Source of the DNA: Brumimicrobium glaciale
GTDB taxonomy: Bacteria > Bacteroidota > Bacteroidia > Flavobacteriales_D > Crocinitomicaceae
Assembly: GCF_004152935.1 (NCBI RefSeq)
Contig: NZ_SETE01000001.1
Span: 744,001-808,000 of the forward strand
Reading direction: 5' to 3'
DNA length: 64,000 nt
Shown: one piece after another, positions 14,589-26,698 of the stretch
Layout of the letters: each line of letters opens with the position of its first letter
How positions within the stretch are numbered: position 1 is the first letter of the stretch
The notes under the pieces: generated by a model
The model's database searches: none
Told to the model about the DNA's origin: nothing
The model's input: the letters and a program-made list of their open reading frames with translations, nothing else
Position numbers and translations under genes: made by a program

Positions 14589-15434
14589 ATGGTTTGGTTT
14601 AAGAGAAAATTAGAAGGAATTCAGACATCAACAAAGGACAAGAAGGAAACCCCAGAAGGTTTGTGGTATAAATGTCCAAAGTGTCAAACTGTAGTTACAA
14701 CAGAAGATCATATTGTGAACTTCTTTATTTGTGAGCGCTGTAGTTTCCATGAACGTATTGGTTCGGAGGAGTACTTTCAACTCTTTTTTGACGATGCGAA
14801 ATACAAAGAAATCGATAAGAAATTAAAGTCTGGTGATCCACTAGAGTTTGAGGACACAAAAAAATATGTGGAACGCATAAAGCAAACACAGAAAAAGACA
14901 GGTCTATCTGATGCGATTCGTACAGCTTACGGAAAAATCGACGGGCAAGATTTCGTTATTGCAGCAATGGACTTTAGTTTTATTGGAGGTTCATTAGGAT
15001 CTGTAATGGGAGAGAAAATCGCTAGAGCAATTGATCAAGCAATTAAAATGGAAGCACCATTTATGATTATTTCAAAGTCTGGTGGAGCAAGAATGATGGA
15101 AGCTGGACTTTCATTAATGCAAATGGCAAAAGTGAGTGCTAAACTGAACCAGTTGTCAGACGCTAAATTGCCTTATATTTCATTATTGACAGACCCAACA
15201 ACAGGTGGTGTTACAGCATCTTTTGCAATGTTAGGAGATATCAATATCGCTGAACCTAATGCTTTAATTGCATTTGCTGGACCGCGTGTGGTAAAAGAAA
15301 CAATTGGTAGAGAATTACCTTTAGGATTCCAACGTTCAGAATTCGTTTTAGAACATGGTTTCTTGGATTACATTGTAGACAGACATAACTTAAGAGAAGA
15401 AGTTTCTAAGTCTGTGAGGATGTTTATGAACTAG
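14589..15434 (+). CDS. accD: acetyl-CoA carboxylase carboxyltransferase subunit beta
   Basis: The 281-residue protein is the beta subunit of the carboxyltransferase that makes malonyl-CoA, the first step of fatty acid synthesis. It has the N-terminal four-cysteine zinc finger (CPKC ... CERC, about residues 29-51) and the crotonase-like carboxylase fold with KSGGARMMEAGLSLMQMAK and PTTGGVTASFAMLGDI. Its partner accA is not in the window. It is probably co-transcribed with fbaA, and a hairpin terminator follows. Confidence 0.96.
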   Translation: MVWFKRKLEGIQTSTKDKKETPEGLWYKCPKCQTVVTTEDHIVNFFICERCSFHERIGSEEYFQLFFDDAKYKEIDKKLKSGDPLEFEDTKKYVERIKQTQKKTGLSDAIRTAYGKIDGQDFVIAAMDFSFIGGSLGSVMGEKIARAIDQAIKMEAPFMIISKSGGARMMEAGLSLMQMAKVSAKLNQLSDAKLPYISLLTDPTTGGVTASFAMLGDINIAEPNALIAFAGPRVVKETIGRELPLGFQRSEFVLEHGFLDYIVDRHNLREEVSKSVRMFMN

Positions 15435-15764: not shown

Positions 15765-18700
15765 ATGAAACACACTATAGCTCATTTTTCAAATAATAAA
15801 AAGGGTTTTGACTCAGAATCCAAGAGATTATTTCCTGCAAATAAAAACACAATTCTATTCTTTTTAAGTGTTGTTTTTACTTTGTCAATTTCTTTTGATA
15901 ATTCTTTTCATGCCCAAGCTTGTCAAAATAATATTAATTCAAACACTTACGGTAACAGTCAATGGTTAGGACACGTTTATAGGCATGATGGTAGTGGTAA
16001 CCCTGTAAATAACCCTTTTGCAGATTATCGCGGTTCTTATTATGAAAACTCCATTGTATTTGATAGAATTTGGGGTAATTCAAGCCCTGATTGTGTAAAT
16101 AATGACAGGTTTGCGGTTCGTTATAAAATGAGAGTAAATGTTAATTGCGGTTTATACAAATTTACAATTGGGGGTGATGACGGTATGCGCTTAAGTATTG
16201 ATGGAGGAGCCACTTGGTTGTTTGGGATTTGGAGTAATCATGGATATTCTACAGTGACTTCACAATTGGTTCATCTTAATGGAACTGTAGATTTAGTTTT
16301 GGAATATTATGAAAACGCAGGAAGTGCACGTGTATCTTTTGATTATGCTGGTCAAACAGGATTCATAACAGCTGGAACAACACAGTTGTCATCTAATTCT
16401 GGAGCAATTAATTCTACAATAAACGGCTTAGTTACGAATGGAAGTGTTGGAACAGGTTTTAATTATCAATGGCGGTATTCCGATGATAATGGTTCGAGTT
16501 GGTCTGATATAGCTGGCCAAACATCTGAAAATTTAACTACTACAGCGCAAGGTAGTGTAGGTACTCGTTTATATCGAAGAGAAACTAAGTGCTCTGGTTC
16601 GGTATCCTATTCTGTAGGAGCTAGTTATACTACTGTAAGTCCATGTGCGTCCGCAGTGAATATGTCTTGTGGTACAAACTATTCAGCAACTTTAGGAACA
16701 TCAGGGGTTTGGAATTCATATAACGGTTGTTCATGGACCGAACCTGGCGGTGAAAAGGTTTACACTTACACTCCTTCAAACTCTGGAAGTTATACTTTCT
16801 CAGCGAATACAACAGGTGGTGATCCGGATTTTTTCTTGATGAGTTCTTGTGGACCAAGCGGTACTAATCTCAATCCAGGTTGTTGGAATGATGGAAATCG
16901 AACTGTTAACTTGGTTGGTGGCACAACATATTATCTTATCGTAGATAATTACTCTGGTGCTAACCCAGCCTCTTTTACCGTTTCAGTTTCTTGCTATGTA
17001 AATCCAGCTTGGAAAAGTGCATGGATATCTATGGATACTGGTTCATCCAATTGGTGTCCAGGTGAAACAAGATCAATAAGTGTGAGGGTGAGAAATATTG
17101 GAAGTGCAACTTGGACAAATTCTTCACCGGATATTAACATTGGTGTGAAGTGGGATAATCAATCAAATGCAGCGGCAATTAAAACCAATGCAAATGGTTT
17201 AGCGTCTGGAGCAGTTCAAACCTATACTTTCAATGTTACAGCTCCTTTGACACAAGGAACAAATAGATTAACTTTTGATGTGGTTAATGAAGGTAATTTC
17301 TGGTTTGCAGATAATAACAATGGAGGAGGTCCAGGAAATGTGATTTATCAAAGTGCTCCAATTAATATCGAACAATTTGGTAATCCTGCGTTATTTGGAG
17401 ATAATTTCTGGTATGTATATGGGTATGATGGCGATAATACAGATTTATCTTTAAATGATTACAAAGGCTTTTATAAACAACCCGATTTAGGGAGTGGAGA
17501 TTACGGAGTATCCACAGAAAACTTTTGGTCAAATGGAAACTCTCCTTCCTTTGCGGGTGATGTTATAAATGATGGAAGCCTGTGGAATGGGTGTGGTGAT
17601 GTTATTGATGATTATTTTAGTTTTACTCATAAAAGAAAGGGCTTTCCTTGTGGGAACTATACTTTTTCGATGGAGAATTGGGATGATGAGACAAGGGTGA
17701 TAATTGACGGGGTAAATATTTGGTCTTGCGGTGTATGGGAGGGAGCTGTTAATTCAGGTAGTAATTACAATACGAATGCTTCGACCTACCAATGCGGGGC
17801 AACTACAACTTTTACTTATCCATTAGATGCAGATTCTAAAGTAGAGTTTCAAACCTTTGAGGGCAATGTGCTTGCGAATCTTGGTGTGAAAATCACTAAA
17901 AACAATCCTTCTTCTTTAACTATGGCCTCTAGTGCATCAAGAACATGTAGGGTAAAAGGAAATTCTTTCATTTATTTTTATGATACTGACAGTAGATTAA
18001 TTGCCGCTATCAATCCTAATGGAGATGATTTAGGAGATGTTACAATAAAAAGTTTTATAGGGTCACCAGATGTTATGGAAGACTGTAGCATACCCGCAAA
18101 TACTTCTTACCATACAGCATATATGGGGCGAAGATGGATTATGACATCAGATGTATATACCAATGGTAGTGATTTTAATAATAATGTGACAGTACAATTA
18201 CCATATACTTTGACTGACTTATCAGCATTGAATTCAAGTGCTCAGAATATAACATTGGGAAATTCAATGGATGGTGGTAATATAGATCCGGCTCGAAGGG
18301 ACAATCTAATGCTTACAAAAATAACTGGTTCAACAGAAAATGGTATTGCCAATCAGGCAGATTGTGCGAGTAACATACGTGCAATAACTAGCTCAACAAA
18401 TGGTACTCAAATTGAGTCGATTCCCAGTACAGAATACGTGGTTTTCAATATCGGACAATTTTCAGAGTTCTTCTTGCATAAAAATAATGAAGGTTCTGCA
18501 CTCCCAGTTAAATTGACCAATTTCTCAGCCTCTTGTGATGACATAGTTTCCATTAATTGGACAACAGCTACTGAGCAAAATTCAGATTACTTTGTTCTAG
18601 AAAAAAGTCGAGATGGACAAACTTGGACTTTCTTTGCAGAACAAAATGCAGCCGGAAATTCCAATTCTAGAATCAATTACAGTTCCTTAGATGAGAATAG

Positions 18701-19055
18701 TTCGAACGGAATTGTTTATTATCGTTTAAAACAAGTTGATTTTGATGGTGAAGAAGAAATCTACGGGCCCATTAGTGTTTTGTGTGACGGTGATAAAAGT
18801 AATATGAAAATTTATCCAAATCCAAATAATGGAACTTTCACAATTGAGGTTTCGAGTGGTGAAAGTTACTCAGATGTACAATTATTATTGACGGATATCA
18901 CTGGGAAAATCGTTACTTCAAAAAAAGTAGATATTTCAAATGGAACAACTCAGGTTCTGATGAATGATTTAGATTTGCGAAAAGGATCATATTTAGTTTG
19001 GCTAAAAGGAACAGATGTAGCACTAAAACCTATAAAGGTGATTGTAAGTCAATAG
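15765..19055 (+). CDS. large secreted PA14/Ig/PPC protein with T9SS type A sorting domain (array gene 1)
   Basis: This 1096-residue protein has a long basic N-region, then a hydrophobic segment (residues 29-43) and a likely signal cleavage near HAQA (about 51). Modules in order: a PA14-type sugar-binding-like domain (about 60-195), an Ig-like segment (200-285), a PPC-like domain (295-410), a CARDB/NBR1-like Ig domain (415-540), a second PA14-like module (FGDNFWYVYGYDGD ... HKRKGFPCGNYTF, 545-715), a conserved block with AYMGRRWIM, an FN3-like stretch (LPVKLTNFSASC), and a T9SS type A C-terminal domain (IYPNPNNGTFTIEV to the end). It should be exported by Sec and then T9SS to the surface. The ligand is unknown. 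Confidence 0.85.
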   Translation: MKHTIAHFSNNKKGFDSESKRLFPANKNTILFFLSVVFTLSISFDNSFHAQACQNNINSNTYGNSQWLGHVYRHDGSGNPVNNPFADYRGSYYENSIVFDRIWGNSSPDCVNNDRFAVRYKMRVNVNCGLYKFTIGGDDGMRLSIDGGATWLFGIWSNHGYSTVTSQLVHLNGTVDLVLEYYENAGSARVSFDYAGQTGFITAGTTQLSSNSGAINSTINGLVTNGSVGTGFNYQWRYSDDNGSSWSDIAGQTSENLTTTAQGSVGTRLYRRETKCSGSVSYSVGASYTTVSPCASAVNMSCGTNYSATLGTSGVWNSYNGCSWTEPGGEKVYTYTPSNSGSYTFSANTTGGDPDFFLMSSCGPSGTNLNPGCWNDGNRTVNLVGGTTYYLIVDNYSGANPASFTVSVSCYVNPAWKSAWISMDTGSSNWCPGETRSISVRVRNIGSATWTNSSPDINIGVKWDNQSNAAAIKTNANGLASGAVQTYTFNVTAPLTQGTNRLTFDVVNEGNFWFADNNNGGGPGNVIYQSAPINIEQFGNPALFGDNFWYVYGYDGDNTDLSLNDYKGFYKQPDLGSGDYGVSTENFWSNGNSPSFAGDVINDGSLWNGCGDVIDDYFSFTHKRKGFPCGNYTFSMENWDDETRVIIDGVNIWSCGVWEGAVNSGSNYNTNASTYQCGATTTFTYPLDADSKVEFQTFEGNVLANLGVKITKNNPSSLTMASSASRTCRVKGNSFIYFYDTDSRLIAAINPNGDDLGDVTIKSFIGSPDVMEDCSIPANTSYHTAYMGRRWIMTSDVYTNGSDFNNNVTVQLPYTLTDLSALNSSAQNITLGNSMDGGNIDPARRDNLMLTKITGSTENGIANQADCASNIRAITSSTNGTQIESIPSTEYVVFNIGQFSEFFLHKNNEGSALPVKLTNFSASCDDIVSINWTTATEQNSDYFVLEKSRDGQTWTFFAEQNAAGNSNSRINYSSLDENSSNGIVYYRLKQVDFDGEEEIYGPISVLCDGDKSNMKIYPNPNNGTFTIEVSSGESYSDVQLLLTDITGKIVTSKKVDISNGTTQVLMNDLDLRKGSYLVWLKGTDVALKPIKVIVSQ

Positions 19056-19476: not shown

Positions 19477-21996
19477 ATGGGATATAAAGATTTTGCTACT
19501 AAACAACTGTTAAACAATCAAGAATTGATTTTTTCTAATTTTTCAAAAGTTAGAAGTGGTTTATCATTTAAGAAGTTTACCTTTTTATCTCATCTGATTT
19601 TAATCTTTTGTTTATCAAGTCTTAACTTTACTTTTGCTCAAACTCAAACATGTGATACAGGAGGTGATGAAACCACTTATGGAATTGATAAATGGATAGG
19701 ATATGTTTATCAACATGTACCTGCGGATTTCCCGCTTTCAACTCCGGTTTCAAATGATTATCGAGGTTACGTTACCGAAAATGAATTGTTTGATAGAGAT
19801 TGGGAATCAGCAAGTCCAAGTTGTTCAAATAATGACAATTTTGCGATTCGTTATAAGATGAATAAAACCTTTGCATGTGGTACTTATAGATTTATTTTAG
19901 GAGGAGATGATGGCGTGCGATTGAGTTTAGATGGCGGTGCAACCTGGTTGATTTCAAAATGGACAAATACAGCTTATACAACTGTTTCCTCTGCTCCAAT
20001 AAGCATGAGCGGAAATACAAATTTGGTTTTGGAATATTATGAAAGAACAGGATTGGGAAGGGTTTCATTTGGGTATGCGACTTTACCTTTTGCAGCTGGT
20101 GTTAGCGCTGGTCCTGACAAGGAAGATTGTAATGGAGGAAATATTGTTTTAAATGGTAGTTTTAATACTAATGATCCAAGCCCAACTTATTTATGGTCAG
20201 GCGGTCCAATTGTGAGTGGTGAAAATACACTTACACCAACAGTTAACCCAACAAGTACCACAACTTACACTTTAACTGTAACATCCAAAAGTTGTACAGC
20301 AAGTGATGATGTTTTGGTCACTGTAGGCGCAGGTTTAACTGGTAATCCTGCAGATTTTGGAGACAATGTTTGGAACGTTTATGGCTATAACGGGAGCAGT
20401 ACTACTTTGTCAAATAATACATACAGAGGTTTTTATGTTCAGCCTAGTTTAAGTACAACGAATTTCGGAGTAAATACACAAAATTTTTGGTCAAATATTA
20501 AATCCCCTTCTGATGCTGGCACAATAAAAGACAATAAGGATCTATGGCAAGGATGTGGCAGTGTAAACGTTAATAATCATACTTTTACAAGTAAAAGACA
20601 AGGATTTCCATGTGGTAACTATACATTTAAGTTTAATAATTGGGACGATGAAACCCGCTTGTATATTGATGGAGTGAGTATCTGGTCATGCGGTGCTTGG
20701 AGCGGAAGCAATTCAACAAATAACTCAAATAGCTCGCAATATGCCTGTGCGGGAGGTGGTACATTTACAGTAAAATTGGATGCCAACTCTAGAGTAGAGT
20801 TTCAAACTTTTGAAGTAGGCGGAGGGTCTAATTTAAGTGTTGATATTGTAGGAGTTACGCCAACTGCCTTGGCTGGTTCTGCAACAAGAACATGTGCTGT
20901 AAAAGGAAGTTCTTGGAATCATTTTTATAATGATCAAAATCAATTAATAGCATCTATCAATCCAAATGGAAGTGATTTAGGCAATGTTACAATGAGAAGT
21001 TTTTTAGGTTCACCTTTGGTTATGGAAGCTTGCACTACTTCTGATCCTTTATATCATACCGCATATATGGGAAGAAGATGGATAATGTCATCAAGTTTAT
21101 ATCCAAATGGAACAAACATAGGAAATAGTGTTGTCGTTCGGTTGCCTTATACCTTAAGTGAACTCACAGAATTGAATAACCATGCAGAAAATGTCACCTT
21201 ATCAAATCCAGAAGATGGAGGAAACTCATTGCCGGCAACAAGGTCTAATATGATGTTGACGAAAATTAGTGGTGGAACTGAGGATGGAGTTGCAAATCAA
21301 TCGGATTGTGTAAGCCAAATTCGAGGAGTAACAAATGGTGGAAGCCTTGTTAATGTATTCACTATACCCAACACTGAGGCTATCGATTTTAGTATAGCTC
21401 AATTCTCTGAATTTTTCCTGCATAAAAACAACGATGACTCCCCTTTGCCAGTTACTTTAACTAAGTTTTCAGCTTCTTGCAGTGATTTTATTTCAATTAA
21501 TTGGACAACAGCATCAGAACAAAATTCAGACTACTTTGAAGTAGAGAAAAGCCGTGATGGTCAAAACTGGACTTTAGTTGATGAACAAAATGCCGCAGGG
21601 AATTCTAGTAACAATATCAATTATAGTTTGGTAGATAAAAATGGCTGGAAAGGATTAACTTATTATCGCTTAAAACAAGTTGATATTGATGGAAAAGAGG
21701 AAGTTTTTGGACCAATAAGTGCTTCTTGTGATGGTAATGAGAACAACATGATTGTTTATCCTAATCCAAATAATGGGAATTTCACTATTGAAATTTTTAG
21801 TGACAATAGTTATTCAGATGTCCAAATGTTAATGACTGATATGACTGGAAAAGTTATTAATTCAAAAAAAGTAGATATTGCTGAAGGAACAACTCAGATT
21901 TTAATAAATAACTTGGATTTGAAAAATGGCTCTTATTTGGTTTCTATTATTGGAGCACAAGTTTTGATTAATCCAATTAGGATTGTTGTGAATTAA
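19477..21996 (+). CDS. secreted PA14 protein with T9SS type A sorting domain (array gene 2)
   Basis: An 839-residue paralogue of the preceding gene. A long N-region (about 35 residues) precedes a hydrophobic core and a cleavage near FAQ (about 55). It keeps the first PA14 domain (TYGIDKWIGYVYQH ... SFGYA, about 63-200). One Ig-like segment follows (about 210-285), then the PA14-like module (FGDNVWNVYGYNGSS ... SKRQGFPCGNYTF, about 290-450), the AYMGRRWIMSSSLYPNG block, the FN3-like stretch and the T9SS type A domain (VYPNPNNGNFTIEI). The PPC and CARDB modules of gene 1 are absent. A surface or extracellular binding role is inferred. Confidence 0.85.
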   Translation: MGYKDFATKQLLNNQELIFSNFSKVRSGLSFKKFTFLSHLILIFCLSSLNFTFAQTQTCDTGGDETTYGIDKWIGYVYQHVPADFPLSTPVSNDYRGYVTENELFDRDWESASPSCSNNDNFAIRYKMNKTFACGTYRFILGGDDGVRLSLDGGATWLISKWTNTAYTTVSSAPISMSGNTNLVLEYYERTGLGRVSFGYATLPFAAGVSAGPDKEDCNGGNIVLNGSFNTNDPSPTYLWSGGPIVSGENTLTPTVNPTSTTTYTLTVTSKSCTASDDVLVTVGAGLTGNPADFGDNVWNVYGYNGSSTTLSNNTYRGFYVQPSLSTTNFGVNTQNFWSNIKSPSDAGTIKDNKDLWQGCGSVNVNNHTFTSKRQGFPCGNYTFKFNNWDDETRLYIDGVSIWSCGAWSGSNSTNNSNSSQYACAGGGTFTVKLDANSRVEFQTFEVGGGSNLSVDIVGVTPTALAGSATRTCAVKGSSWNHFYNDQNQLIASINPNGSDLGNVTMRSFLGSPLVMEACTTSDPLYHTAYMGRRWIMSSSLYPNGTNIGNSVVVRLPYTLSELTELNNHAENVTLSNPEDGGNSLPATRSNMMLTKISGGTEDGVANQSDCVSQIRGVTNGGSLVNVFTIPNTEAIDFSIAQFSEFFLHKNNDDSPLPVTLTKFSASCSDFISINWTTASEQNSDYFEVEKSRDGQNWTLVDEQNAAGNSSNNINYSLVDKNGWKGLTYYRLKQVDIDGKEEVFGPISASCDGNENNMIVYPNPNNGNFTIEIFSDNSYSDVQMLMTDMTGKVINSKKVDIAEGTTQILINNLDLKNGSYLVSIIGAQVLINPIRIVVN

Positions 21997-22031
21997 AAGG
22001 AAAGAAGTATAATTTAAAATACGTCTTACCG

Positions 22032-22128
22032 TCAGGTCACGAAATCCTCCGTCTTTTTTATCAAGCACGTCTATAATGAAAAAAGCATCTGCCATGAGAT
22101 CTGATATCGGATCTATTTCGTGGTCTGA
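22032..22128. repeat. 97-bp inverted repeat in the gap before array gene 3
   Basis: TCAGGTCACGAAAT (22032-22045) is mirrored by ATTTCGTGGTCTGA (22115-22128) at 12 of 14 positions. Inside are CTTTTTT/AAAAAAG arms and a near-palindrome (AGATCTGATATCGGATCT, 22097-22114). The rest of the 560-base gap 21997-22562 shows no gene. It could be a structured RNA, a terminator for gene 2, or a degenerate inverted-repeat element. Confidence 0.55.
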
Positions 22129-22562
22129 TTTTATCTTGTTTTGCTAAACTGGCTTTCTAAGTCAAAGTCGAATAAATTCTGTTATTTATAAGATTTACAC
22201 TGACCAAATTTCTTCTTCAAAATAATTGTTGAAATGTTTAACACGAATAGAATAAAACTGCAAAAATTTAAAACTGCTTTTAGATTTAAATTAACCTAAA
22301 ATTCTTTATGTTTTCAAATGAAATCTAACACAAGACGCCTGAACCTCGCTTTCCAAAAAGGATTCGTCTATAAATTCATTCGCTTGTAGTGGTTCTTGTA
22401 AGTTTAGAAGTCTCATTAACAATGATTAACAAATCCCGTTAAATTATTCGTCTAAAACCTAACTAGATTAAAGGAGTTCTTTGTCCGAAACCTTAAATTT
22501 ATATAGTCAAACAGCTAATTTTCACCTATGTCGAGAATGTTTATTCATGAAATATTTTGGGT

Positions 22563-25058
22563 ATGAAATATTATACACTGTTACGAAAATTTGACTACAC
22601 AAGTTTAATAATCAAAAAAGTAAATAAGTGTTTATTTTTAAGTGTTGTTTTTTGTTTTATAGTCAATATCAGTATTTCACAGCAAGGATTTGGAGATGGC
22701 TATTGGAATGTCAATGTTTATGATATTAGAGGAGCATCAGGAAATATTAATACTTTGCCAATTAATTACAAAGGGTATTATACGCAGAAATTAGATGTAA
22801 CTGGAAATTACGGAGTAAATACAACACTTTCATGGTTCGCAGCTGGTGGAACATCGAATTCAGCTTCAAATGCTGCTGCGTTTAATAACAGTAATGGAGA
22901 AGGTACTAAATACACGAATGTGAATGGAACAACTTCTGGAGAAGATTTTACATTTATTCATAAACGAAAAGGTTTTCCGAGTGGTAAATACAAAATTGTA
23001 GTTGACTTTTGGGATGATGAAACTTATATATTCATAGATGGTGTTCTTAAAACATTTGTAGGTAGTAATCTTGGAAGCTGAGGTACTTCAGCTGTTACTT
23101 TACTACATTGCGTGGATTTAGATGAAAACACTACAATTGAAATAAGAACCTCAAGCCAACAAAATCCATCAAATTTAGGAATGACCATTACCTCAACGGA
23201 CTTAACTGTAGATGCGGGTGAACAAAAGCAAATTTGTGATGGAGATAATGTTGTGTTAGACGGAAGTCCAAACACGAATAATGCTACATACTCATGGACT
23301 GGAGGTTCTTTTGTGAGTGGTTCAACAACTTTAACTCCTACAGTAAGTCCTACTACAAACTCAACTTATACTATAACTGCCACTTTGGGTGAATGTACTG
23401 CATCTAGTGATGTCTTGGTTAACGTTGATATTCACTTAGGTCAAAGTGAATTTGGCAATCAAGTTTGGAACGTATATGGATACAATGGAAATAACAGGAA
23501 TTTGAATAATGCTTACAGAGGGTTTTATGTACAGCCTAACCTTGCATCACCAAATTTGGGAATTAACACAGAACAATTCTGGACAAAGACTCTATCTCCA
23601 TCCTCTTCTGGAACTACAAAAGATAATAGTGACTTATGGAATGGCTGTCCAGTCAATGTTAATAATCATACCTTTATTCATAAGCGAAAAGGTTTTCCTT
23701 GTGGGAATTATACTTTTACTATGAATAGATGGAATGATGAGGTTAGAGTTCTTATTGATGGAACAATCGTATGGAGTTGCACGACTAATAGCGGAGCTGC
23801 CAATTGCACAGATAGAACTTTTACTGTCCAGTTAGATGTTGATTCAGAAGTTGAAATTCAAGTCTTTGAAAATACAGGAACATCAAATTTGAATATAGAG
23901 CTTATACCTGTGCCGATATCTTCCCTTACCCCATTAGGAGTGTATACAAGAAAGTGTAAAGTAAGCGGAATTGAATGGGTTAGGTTTTTTGATGAAAATG
24001 ACAAATTAATAGCTTCAATTAATCCAAATGGAAGTGATTTAGGTAATGTTACAATGACCAGTTATGTTAGTTCGCCAATGATTATGGAGGCTTGTAATAC
24101 TCCACATCCACTTTATTATATTGCTTATATGGGACGAAGATGGGTGATGAGTTCCGATCTTTATCCTAACGGAGCAAACTTTAATAACAATGTGACGGTT
24201 CGCTTACCTTATGATGAAAATGATTTGTTTGGCTTGAATGCTCATGCTCAATTAGTAACAATTCAAAATATGTTTGATGGAGGCGATGTTGAACCTGTCG
24301 TGAAAGAGAACATAATGTTAACGAAAATTACTGGTGGAGTAGCAGATGGAACTGCCAATAGCCTGGATTGTGGAGCTACTTTTCTTGGAATTGATAACAC
24401 AGGAAGAGGTCTGGAGATGGAGTCGATTTTGAATACCGAATATGTTGATTTTGAAATCCAACAATTCTCAGAGTTCTTTCTTCATAAAAACAATGGTGGT
24501 TCTGCTCTACCAGTAGAATTAACCAACTTTTCAGCATCATGTGAAAACAATGCTTCAATAAAATGGACAACGGCTTCAGAACTAAACTCAGATTATTTCT
24601 TAGTTGAAAAAAGCCGTGATGGTCATAACTGGACTTTGGTTGAAAAGCAAAATGCTGCTGGGAATTCAAATGCTGAAATCAACTACAGCTTTGTTGATGA
24701 AGATAGGTGGAATGGACTGTCTTATTACCGTTTAAGACAAGTTGATTTTGATGGAAAAGAAGAAGTTTTTGGTCCAATAAGTGTGTCTTGTACTGGAAAT
24801 GAGAACAGCATGACAGTTTATCCTAATCCAAATAATGGAACTTTTATAATTGAAATTTCGAGTGACAATGGTTATTCAGATGTACAATTGTTTATGACAG
24901 ATGCAACTGGTAAAATTGTTGTTTCAGAGGAAATAGATATTTCCAATGGAACAACACAATTTACAGTGAATAAGTTAGATTTATCAAAAGGAGTGTATTT
25001 GGTTTCTATTATTGGAGTTGATAATCAGCTGAAACCAGTAAAAGTTGTTTTGAATTAA
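22563..25058 (+). pseudogene. secreted PA14/T9SS type A paralogue interrupted by in-frame TGA (array gene 3)
   Basis: One reading frame runs from ATG 22563 to 25058 and is broken only by TGA at 23079-23081. The upstream part (172 residues) has a signal peptide (cleavage near SISQQG) and most of a PA14-like module. The downstream part, from just after the stop, continues that module, then an Ig-like segment, a second PA14-like module (FGNQVWNVYGYNGN), the AYMGRRWVMSSDLYPNG block, FN3-like stretch and T9SS type A domain (VYPNPNNGTFIIEI). No frameshift is present. The 3' part has only a GTG (23112) and no signal peptide, so it should not be exported alone. The stop falls in a loop between two conserved strands. 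The choice between pseudogene, readthrough and sequencing error is open. Confidence 0.8.
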
Positions 25059-25177: not shown

Positions 25178-26698
25178 CTATTTCTTTGGCTCATCAATAT
25201 CTTCGTCGCTATCTGAATCGTTTTCTAAATCATTATCAGTTTCATTCAGTGGGGAATCTTCTTTTTCAATATTTTGAGATTCAACACTTTCTTCCTCCGT
25301 TTCGTTGACTACTGAGCCAATTTCTGAAGCAATTTTGTCTTTAACTATCTCCTCTGCTTGATGGGCGTTTTCTAATAGTTCATCTTGCTTTTTATCAGTT
25401 GCTACTTTGTCTGTTTTTTCTCCAGTAACTTCTCCATCAGAATCCAATGATATACTTGCGTCAGAAGACCCCATAGACATTTTTTCTTTTATTCTGGTGA
25501 AGAATGTTTCATCCTTTTCTTTGTTGAACATCAATCCAATCATCATTACGACTACTGAGAGTAATATCACTTGCGTTATTAAAGTCTCACTAACGATGTC
25601 AATATTGTCTTCTGGTGCAATGTATAAGAACAGTAAGATGGTAATTAATCCTCGAGGAGCAACGAACATCAATGGCATTACCGGAACTTTAGATATTTTC
25701 AATTGAACAAAACGAATTAAAAAGATTAGTCCAACAATTCCTAATGTCCAATAGAATGTATCTAGGTCTAATAATTCCTCTGTATTAATAAGGAATCCGA
25801 ACAATAAAAAGAACATTACCCGAACTAAAAAAGTACCTTCTCTTAAGATTTCATGAAATTTTGTGACTTCATGTTCCAGTTTATTAAGCTTAAACTTCTG
25901 TATGAATTTGATGCGTTTTATTTCCTCTAAATTCCCTAAGAACAATCCAAACAACATAATAAATATCAAGGCAGGTAAATGATAGATTTTAGAGATTGTA
26001 TAAATAAGAATGACTAAAATGATAATAGGAATAAACTTAATCTGGTGATTTATTCTTGCTAATAAGTAGGATAATCCGATAGTTGCAATGAATGAAACAA
26101 CTGCGATAATTAACAATTGAAGAAGGAAAACCCATAAAGAATCAAAATCAATAACAGTATTTCTAAATACGAAATCAAAGAATAGAACACCTAAAATGTC
26201 AGATAAACTACTTTCATAAGTAACGAATTCTTTATTTTTCTTACCTAAATTAACGGCACTTGGAATAGCAATAGCGGAACTAATAACGGTTAAAGGGATT
26301 GCTCCGATTAATGCTTTTCTAAAGTCAGGATCTACATAACCAGAGCCATAATGTATTTGGTAGTAATAAAATGCTCCAGCGAGTATAAACCCAAGTACCA
26401 TCATTGGAATAAGTGCAACAATAATGGACTTTTTAATCATGGGGAGCTTGGACTTGTTGAACTCCAATTCCAAAGAGCCTTCCAAAACAATCACAATAAG
26501 TCCAATGGTTCCTAAGAATGGCAATAAACCATCTAGATTAGGAACATTGATTTTAAAAACATCAGTAATCTGATGTAATCCCCAACCTAAAATAAGTAAA
26601 AGAATAACAGAAGGAATTTTAGTTTTTGAAGTCGTAAGATCAAATATATATGCCACTATGATCAACACACAAAAGGCAATGATGAAAGTATTTGTCAT
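25178..26698 (-). CDS. cation:proton antiporter (CPA family) with acidic cytoplasmic tail
   Basis: The 506-residue protein has about twelve membrane helices from residue 4 to about 405, in the Na+/H+ exchanger (CPA, NhaP-like) pattern, with VILEGSLELEFNKSKL in the first third and SSLSDILGVLFFDFVF near residue 165 as the likely ion-site region. It should exchange Na+ or K+ for H+ across the inner membrane. The last 95 residues form a strongly acidic, Glu/Asp/Ser-rich tail (for example NDLENDSDSDEDIDEPKK), which is longer than the core transporter needs and may be regulatory. Confidence 0.88.
   Translation of the reverse strand: MTNTFIIAFCVLIIVAYIFDLTTSKTKIPSVILLLILGWGLHQITDVFKINVPNLDGLLPFLGTIGLIVIVLEGSLELEFNKSKLPMIKKSIIVALIPMMVLGFILAGAFYYYQIHYGSGYVDPDFRKALIGAIPLTVISSAIAIPSAVNLGKKNKEFVTYESSLSDILGVLFFDFVFRNTVIDFDSLWVFLLQLLIIAVVSFIATIGLSYLLARINHQIKFIPIIILVILIYTISKIYHLPALIFIMLFGLFLGNLEEIKRIKFIQKFKLNKLEHEVTKFHEILREGTFLVRVMFFLLFGFLINTEELLDLDTFYWTLGIVGLIFLIRFVQLKISKVPVMPLMFVAPRGLITILLFLYIAPEDNIDIVSETLITQVILLSVVVMMIGLMFNKEKDETFFTRIKEKMSMGSSDASISLDSDGEVTGEKTDKVATDKKQDELLENAHQAEEIVKDKIASEIGSVVNETEEESVESQNIEKEDSPLNETDNDLENDSDSDEDIDEPKK

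Follow-up and report, generated by a model that had tools for sequence, protein, structure and literature searches.

A tRNA-Trp whose anticodon stem holds four base pairs has been described in bacteria. Fakih et al. 2026 (PMC13092985) term tRNA-Trp of this form 'Blastocrithidia-like' and count it at 2.0% of bacterial tRNA-Trp genes, and in E. coli the overexpression of a 4-bp-stem (C27A) tRNA-Trp increased readthrough of UGA by a factor of about 2.5. G43U is cited there as a further readthrough-competent form of tRNA-Trp, while readthrough with tRNA and RF2 at their native levels is named as an open question (PMC13092985). On T9SS pseudogenes and on Brumimicrobium, nothing specific was found in the literature.

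In Brumimicrobium glaciale, a surface-protein gene with a lone in-frame UGA occurs together with an only detected tRNA-Trp of a type recently reported to raise UGA readthrough, making it a natural test site at native tRNA and RF2 levels. There is nonetheless good reason to regard this gene (gene 3) as an old, dispensable tandem paralogue that a single nonsense change put out of action not long ago.

A tandem array of T9SS-sorted genes with one interrupted member

The window, that is, the whole 64,000-nucleotide stretch analysed (G000:C1:744001-808000), belongs to a 4.27-Mb assembly of 12 contigs that is 99.98% complete. Genome-level statistics were obtained from a 464-kb sample of the same genome, and comparisons across the genus were made with one genome per species. 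Between 14.6 and 26.7 kb the window contains accD, three tandem plus-strand genes for T9SS-sorted proteins and an antiporter gene on the opposite strand, as follows (window coordinates).

14589-15434, plus strand: accD, bounding the conserved interval on the left
15765-19055, plus strand: gene 1 (paralogue 1), intact, 1096 aa, T9SS sorting domain
19477-21996, plus strand: gene 2 (paralogue 2), intact, 839 aa, with a T9SS sorting domain and about 60% identity to the 3' part of gene 3
22563-25058, plus strand: gene 3, third of the tandem genes, for a T9SS-sorted protein with two PA14/GLEYA-like domains, single TGA interruption
22563-23078, plus strand: 5' ORF of gene 3, 172 aa counted from ATG, with a hydrophobic, signal-like segment (residues 23-36) and a truncated PA14/GLEYA-like domain
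23076-23093, plus strand: inverted repeat AGCTGA-N6-TCAGCT, with the TGA within the paired stem
23079-23081, plus strand: in-frame TGA of gene 3 (codon 173), within a hypervariable loop between strands of domain 1
23112-25058, plus strand: 3' ORF of gene 3, 648 aa counted from GTG, with the second PA14/GLEYA-like domain, the T9SS type A sorting domain and no signal peptide
25178-26698, minus strand: probable cation/proton antiporter gene (name given by inspection alone), bounding the conserved interval on the right

The spacer of 566 bp between genes 2 and 3 (21997-22562) is long compared with the rest of the stretch.

Read from the ATG at 22563, gene 3 holds a single stop in 831 codons, the TGA at codon 173, and the same frame ends at a TAA (25056-25058), with neither a frameshift nor a further stop found between these two points. 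Codon use is coding-like on both sides of the TGA (0.286 and 0.290) and negative in the other frames, and the in-frame position of the stop reported in the preliminary description is thus borne out. Hydropathy reveals a signal-like hydrophobic segment in the 5' part and none in the 3' part, which retains the T9SS type A sorting domain. Unless the TGA is read through, the signal segment and the sorting domain are consequently found on separate products, and the earlier statement that the 5' product keeps the signal peptide and the 3' product the sorting domain without a signal agrees with both hydropathy and the sorting-domain match.

Domain architecture and the predicted effect of truncation

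The C-terminal 550 to 615 residues or so are common to genes 1, 2 and 3 (55-60% identity), and the T9SS sorting domain (Por_Secre_tail, PF18962 / TIGR04183) scores above the curated cut-off in each of them. At its N-terminus gene 3 repeats its own internal PA14/GLEYA-like domain, whereas genes 1 and 2 have a different N-terminal region, so that the architecture first described as the same in the three genes is shared in its C-terminal portion only. For domain search and folding, and solely for these, the TGA was read as W, and no ancestral residue is claimed by this choice. A Pfam search with domain 1 of gene 3 alone reached no family, and its homologues gave weak Pfam matches to GLEYA (4/6) or PA14 (2/6). 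The AlphaFold2 model of the read-through domain 1 displays beta structure with modest confidence (mean pLDDT 63, pTM 0.68), and Foldseek searches with this model retrieved PA14/GLEYA sugar-binding adhesin domains (5a3l, 6m8m, 6x8a and 5j6y; E 6e-6 to 3e-4), a PA14-type fold being thereby indicated from a model of modest confidence. The products of the array genes are probably sugar-binding and adhesin-like.

The stop corresponds to residue 133 of the domain 1 model, in a low-confidence loop, and three of the nine predicted strands (138-146, 151-158 and 166-172) come after it, which makes proper folding of the truncated 5' product unlikely. The 3' ORF, since it carries no signal-like segment, should not enter the Sec/T9SS route according to established T9SS biology. 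Loss of a functional gene 3 product is consequently likely on sequence grounds, from the truncation of domain 1 together with the missing signal of the 3' part. These observations also bear on the reading that gene 3 is a split gene, each part of which yields a functional protein of its own, for which the possible GTG start at 23112 and the sorting domain of the 3' ORF could be invoked. This reading is most improbable given that the 3' part is devoid of a signal-like segment, that the stop cuts through domain 1 and not between domains, and that no relative examined is split at this place.

Nature of the change at codon 173

A TGG-to-TGA or similar change had been put forward to account for the stop. 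A point change is indeed the best explanation, whereas a former tryptophan finds no backing, as the homologues share no residue at the site; the TGA lies in a surface loop too variable to reveal which residue it replaced. No homopolymer or tandem repeat was found overlapping the TGA at 23079-23081. Phase variation, which had been listed among the alternatives, therefore has no sequence basis, and repeat-based switching at gene 3 is rejected.

The two ORFs being separated by one isolated substitution, a base-call or assembly error would also produce the observed sequence, gene 3 then being intact in the organism. A consensus sequence seldom contains isolated substitution errors, the assembly is nearly complete in 12 contigs, and neither homopolymer nor repeat was found at the TGA, so that this reading is quite unlikely.

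The inverted repeat around the stop

The inverted repeat AGCTGA-N6-TCAGCT of the preliminary description is present at the stop; the placement of the stop in a predicted loop was not recovered, as the folds put the UGA within the 7-bp stem of a predicted hairpin, two bases away from its GUAC loop. This motif occurs once in the window in its exact form and twice when up to two mismatches are allowed, compared with a mean of 1.96 in shuffled sequence, and inverted repeats of six bases around a short loop are found at about 2.6 per kb of the window. The 51-nt fold at the TGA is stronger than 99.8% of the equal-length stretches in the three genes, and the 31-nt and 91-nt folds have z-scores of only -1.3. 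The hairpin is no evidence of function. As a recoding signal it is rejected, with the UGA in the stem, the motif with mismatches at chance level and no selenocysteine machinery detected.

Insertion of selenocysteine at the UGA, for which the overlap of the hairpin with the UGA would speak, has a negligible probability and is close to refuted. SelA was not found in the genome, the tRNA-Sec model gave no match above its cut-off (below gathering score), UGA is a common true stop, the homologues have no conserved cysteine at the site, and the UGA lies inside a short stem with the loop two bases away.

UGA as a stop codon in this genome

TGA terminates 46 of the 284 ORFs sampled, and both RF1-like and RF2-like genes are present, the latter encoding an SPF motif, which we take as the mark of RF2. 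A programmed frameshift is common in prfB; the RF2-like gene here (L113:1411-2496, minus strand) runs in one frame from its own ATG, and the ORF listing shows no programmed frameshift. A UCA anticodon is absent among the 34 tRNAs. A genetic code in which UGA stands for tryptophan is at odds with the RF2-like gene and with the 46/284 ORFs ending in TGA.

In the 464 kb sampled, gene 3 is the only case in which two coding-like segments of at least 100 codons each are joined across a TGA. Across TAA or TAG, 15 such joins were found, mostly with an ATG close behind the stop, as expected for neighbouring genes. Backup stops followed TGA in 74% against 55% of cases (p 0.022) before close genes were removed, and this enrichment was not significant once overlapping and close genes were taken out; stops in another frame were depleted alongside, suggesting that the apparent enrichment reflects overlapping downstream genes.

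The only detected tRNA-Trp and the possibility of readthrough

The sole tRNA-Trp(CCA) detected (L095:1501-1573; G000:C6:135379-135451) has the anticodon stem CTGGT/ACCAT, in which the unpinned C27.U43 mismatch leaves a 4-bp stem, together with a 7-nt anticodon loop, A9 and G24. The C27.U43 form is found in 8 of the 10 Brumimicrobium species and G27.U43 in the other two, the latter pair being also that of most other family members inspected in a list biased to close matches.

It could therefore be asked if the UGA at 23079 is sometimes read as tryptophan by this tRNA, giving a little full-length secreted protein. Such partial readthrough would be in keeping with the C27.U43 pair, with the 4-bp stem, which is also that of the C27A tRNA reported to raise readthrough (PMC13092985), and with the intact frame downstream of the TGA. 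It is nevertheless unlikely. The tRNA variant is shared by 8 of the 10 Brumimicrobium species, yet TGA stop use is not reduced; with close genes left out, the surplus of backup stops behind TGA is not significant; the 464 kb sampled yielded no second TGA-split gene; RF2 is present; and a TGA at this place occurs in no homologue examined. The predictions of a leaky UGA thus did not hold in the samples, be it for TGA use, backup stops or further TGA-split genes, although a weak effect would be missed in samples of this small size. Genome-wide avoidance of TGA in company with the C27 tRNA was not seen (46/284 sampled ORFs). The more specific proposal that readthrough by the natural 4-bp-stem tRNA-Trp(CCA) yields a functional adhesin, in small amounts that depend on how the tRNA and RF2 compete and with UGA still serving as a stop, is very doubtful.

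Relatives and history of gene 3

The interval between accD and the antiporter gene contains three genes of the family here, two in Brumimicrobium oceani (G003) and one in a congener (G001) (L062; L063), all of them open with the exception of gene 3. Neither G003 nor G001 was found to have an orthologue of gene 3 in this interval, which argues that the genus can do without the third gene. The search with the antiporter gene had B. oceani as its sole match. A protein search of the genome contigs with the read-through product of gene 3 returned no relative, and a second intact copy of gene 3 was not found in the B. glaciale genome. The closest relative of domain 1, in the genome G007, is 41% identical and uninterrupted, and the C-terminal and domain homologues examined are open at the place corresponding to the TGA of gene 3, with no stop there and no gene split there in any relative examined.

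Between genes 3 and 2, dN is 0.31 and dS is 1.35 (saturated). Rate tests disagree according to the outgroup. With the distant outgroup G040a, 34 protein changes were assigned to gene 3 and 37 to gene 2, hence no excess, whereas unique protein changes were in excess in gene 3 with G001 (82 vs 24) and G056 (70 vs 36) as references. The G001 gene may be orthologous to gene 2, in which case the test with G001 as reference would be biased. The saturated dS, the low dN/dS and the lack of excess against G040a suggest an old duplicate long under purifying selection, in which the stop is recent or tolerated.

Other family hits with internal stops display TAA, TAG and TGA alike, which is the pattern expected of ordinary decay. 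At G000:C1:42459-42599 (neighbourhood of L012/L013), beside a cluster of intact relatives, lies a short fragment resembling the C-terminal part of a T9SS gene with two internal TAA, probably another decayed copy. In a different genus of the same family, a T9SS-tail match with one internal TGA was observed at G139:C95:12199-12738.

Probable inactivation of gene 3 and comparison with known systems

Gene 3 bears a premature in-frame stop where its homologues are intact, as a nonsense pseudogene does. The intact homologues elsewhere, the use of TGA as a stop and the presence of RF2 speak for inactivation; against it, a lone lesion with no further decay would also be expected if the gene were functional through readthrough, if a base had been miscalled or if strains had come to differ at this codon very recently. 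The single stop in this array gene is most likely ordinary gene decay, part of routine turnover. Under inactivation, a single nonsense change would have created the TGA at codon 173 of a long-selected third paralogue, the 5' product would be exported with neither a sorting domain nor the final strands of domain 1 and presumably be misfolded or degraded, and the 3' part, if made at all, could not reach the T9SS for want of a signal peptide. The net effect would be the loss of one surface protein, with paralogues 1 and 2 left intact. As a broken paralogue, gene 3 represents turnover within a surface-protein array of variable make-up, and its importance lies chiefly in annotation.

Compared with the PA14/GLEYA sugar-binding domains of the yeast Cea1/Flo type and the PA14 domain of the Marinomonas primoryensis RTX adhesin, domain 1 is alike in the weak sequence matches of its homologues and in the fold match of the modelled domain, and it differs in that identity in the fold matches is just 10-15%, with a pLDDT of 63. 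Genes 1, 2 and 3 resemble T9SS type A sorted proteins by a sorting domain above the curated cut-off, which in gene 3 is severed from the signal peptide by the stop. The tRNA-Trp of this genome shares with the 'Blastocrithidia-like' tRNA-Trp(CCA) (PMC13092985) the unpinned C27.U43 top pair, the 7-nt loop, A9 and G24, whereas nothing in the samples from this genome points to a reassigned UGA or to a lowered use of UGA as a stop. From nonsense-interrupted pseudogenes, finally, gene 3 differs in no sequence feature, having like them one stop in an otherwise intact frame, intact paralogues and an array whose copy number varies among congeners.
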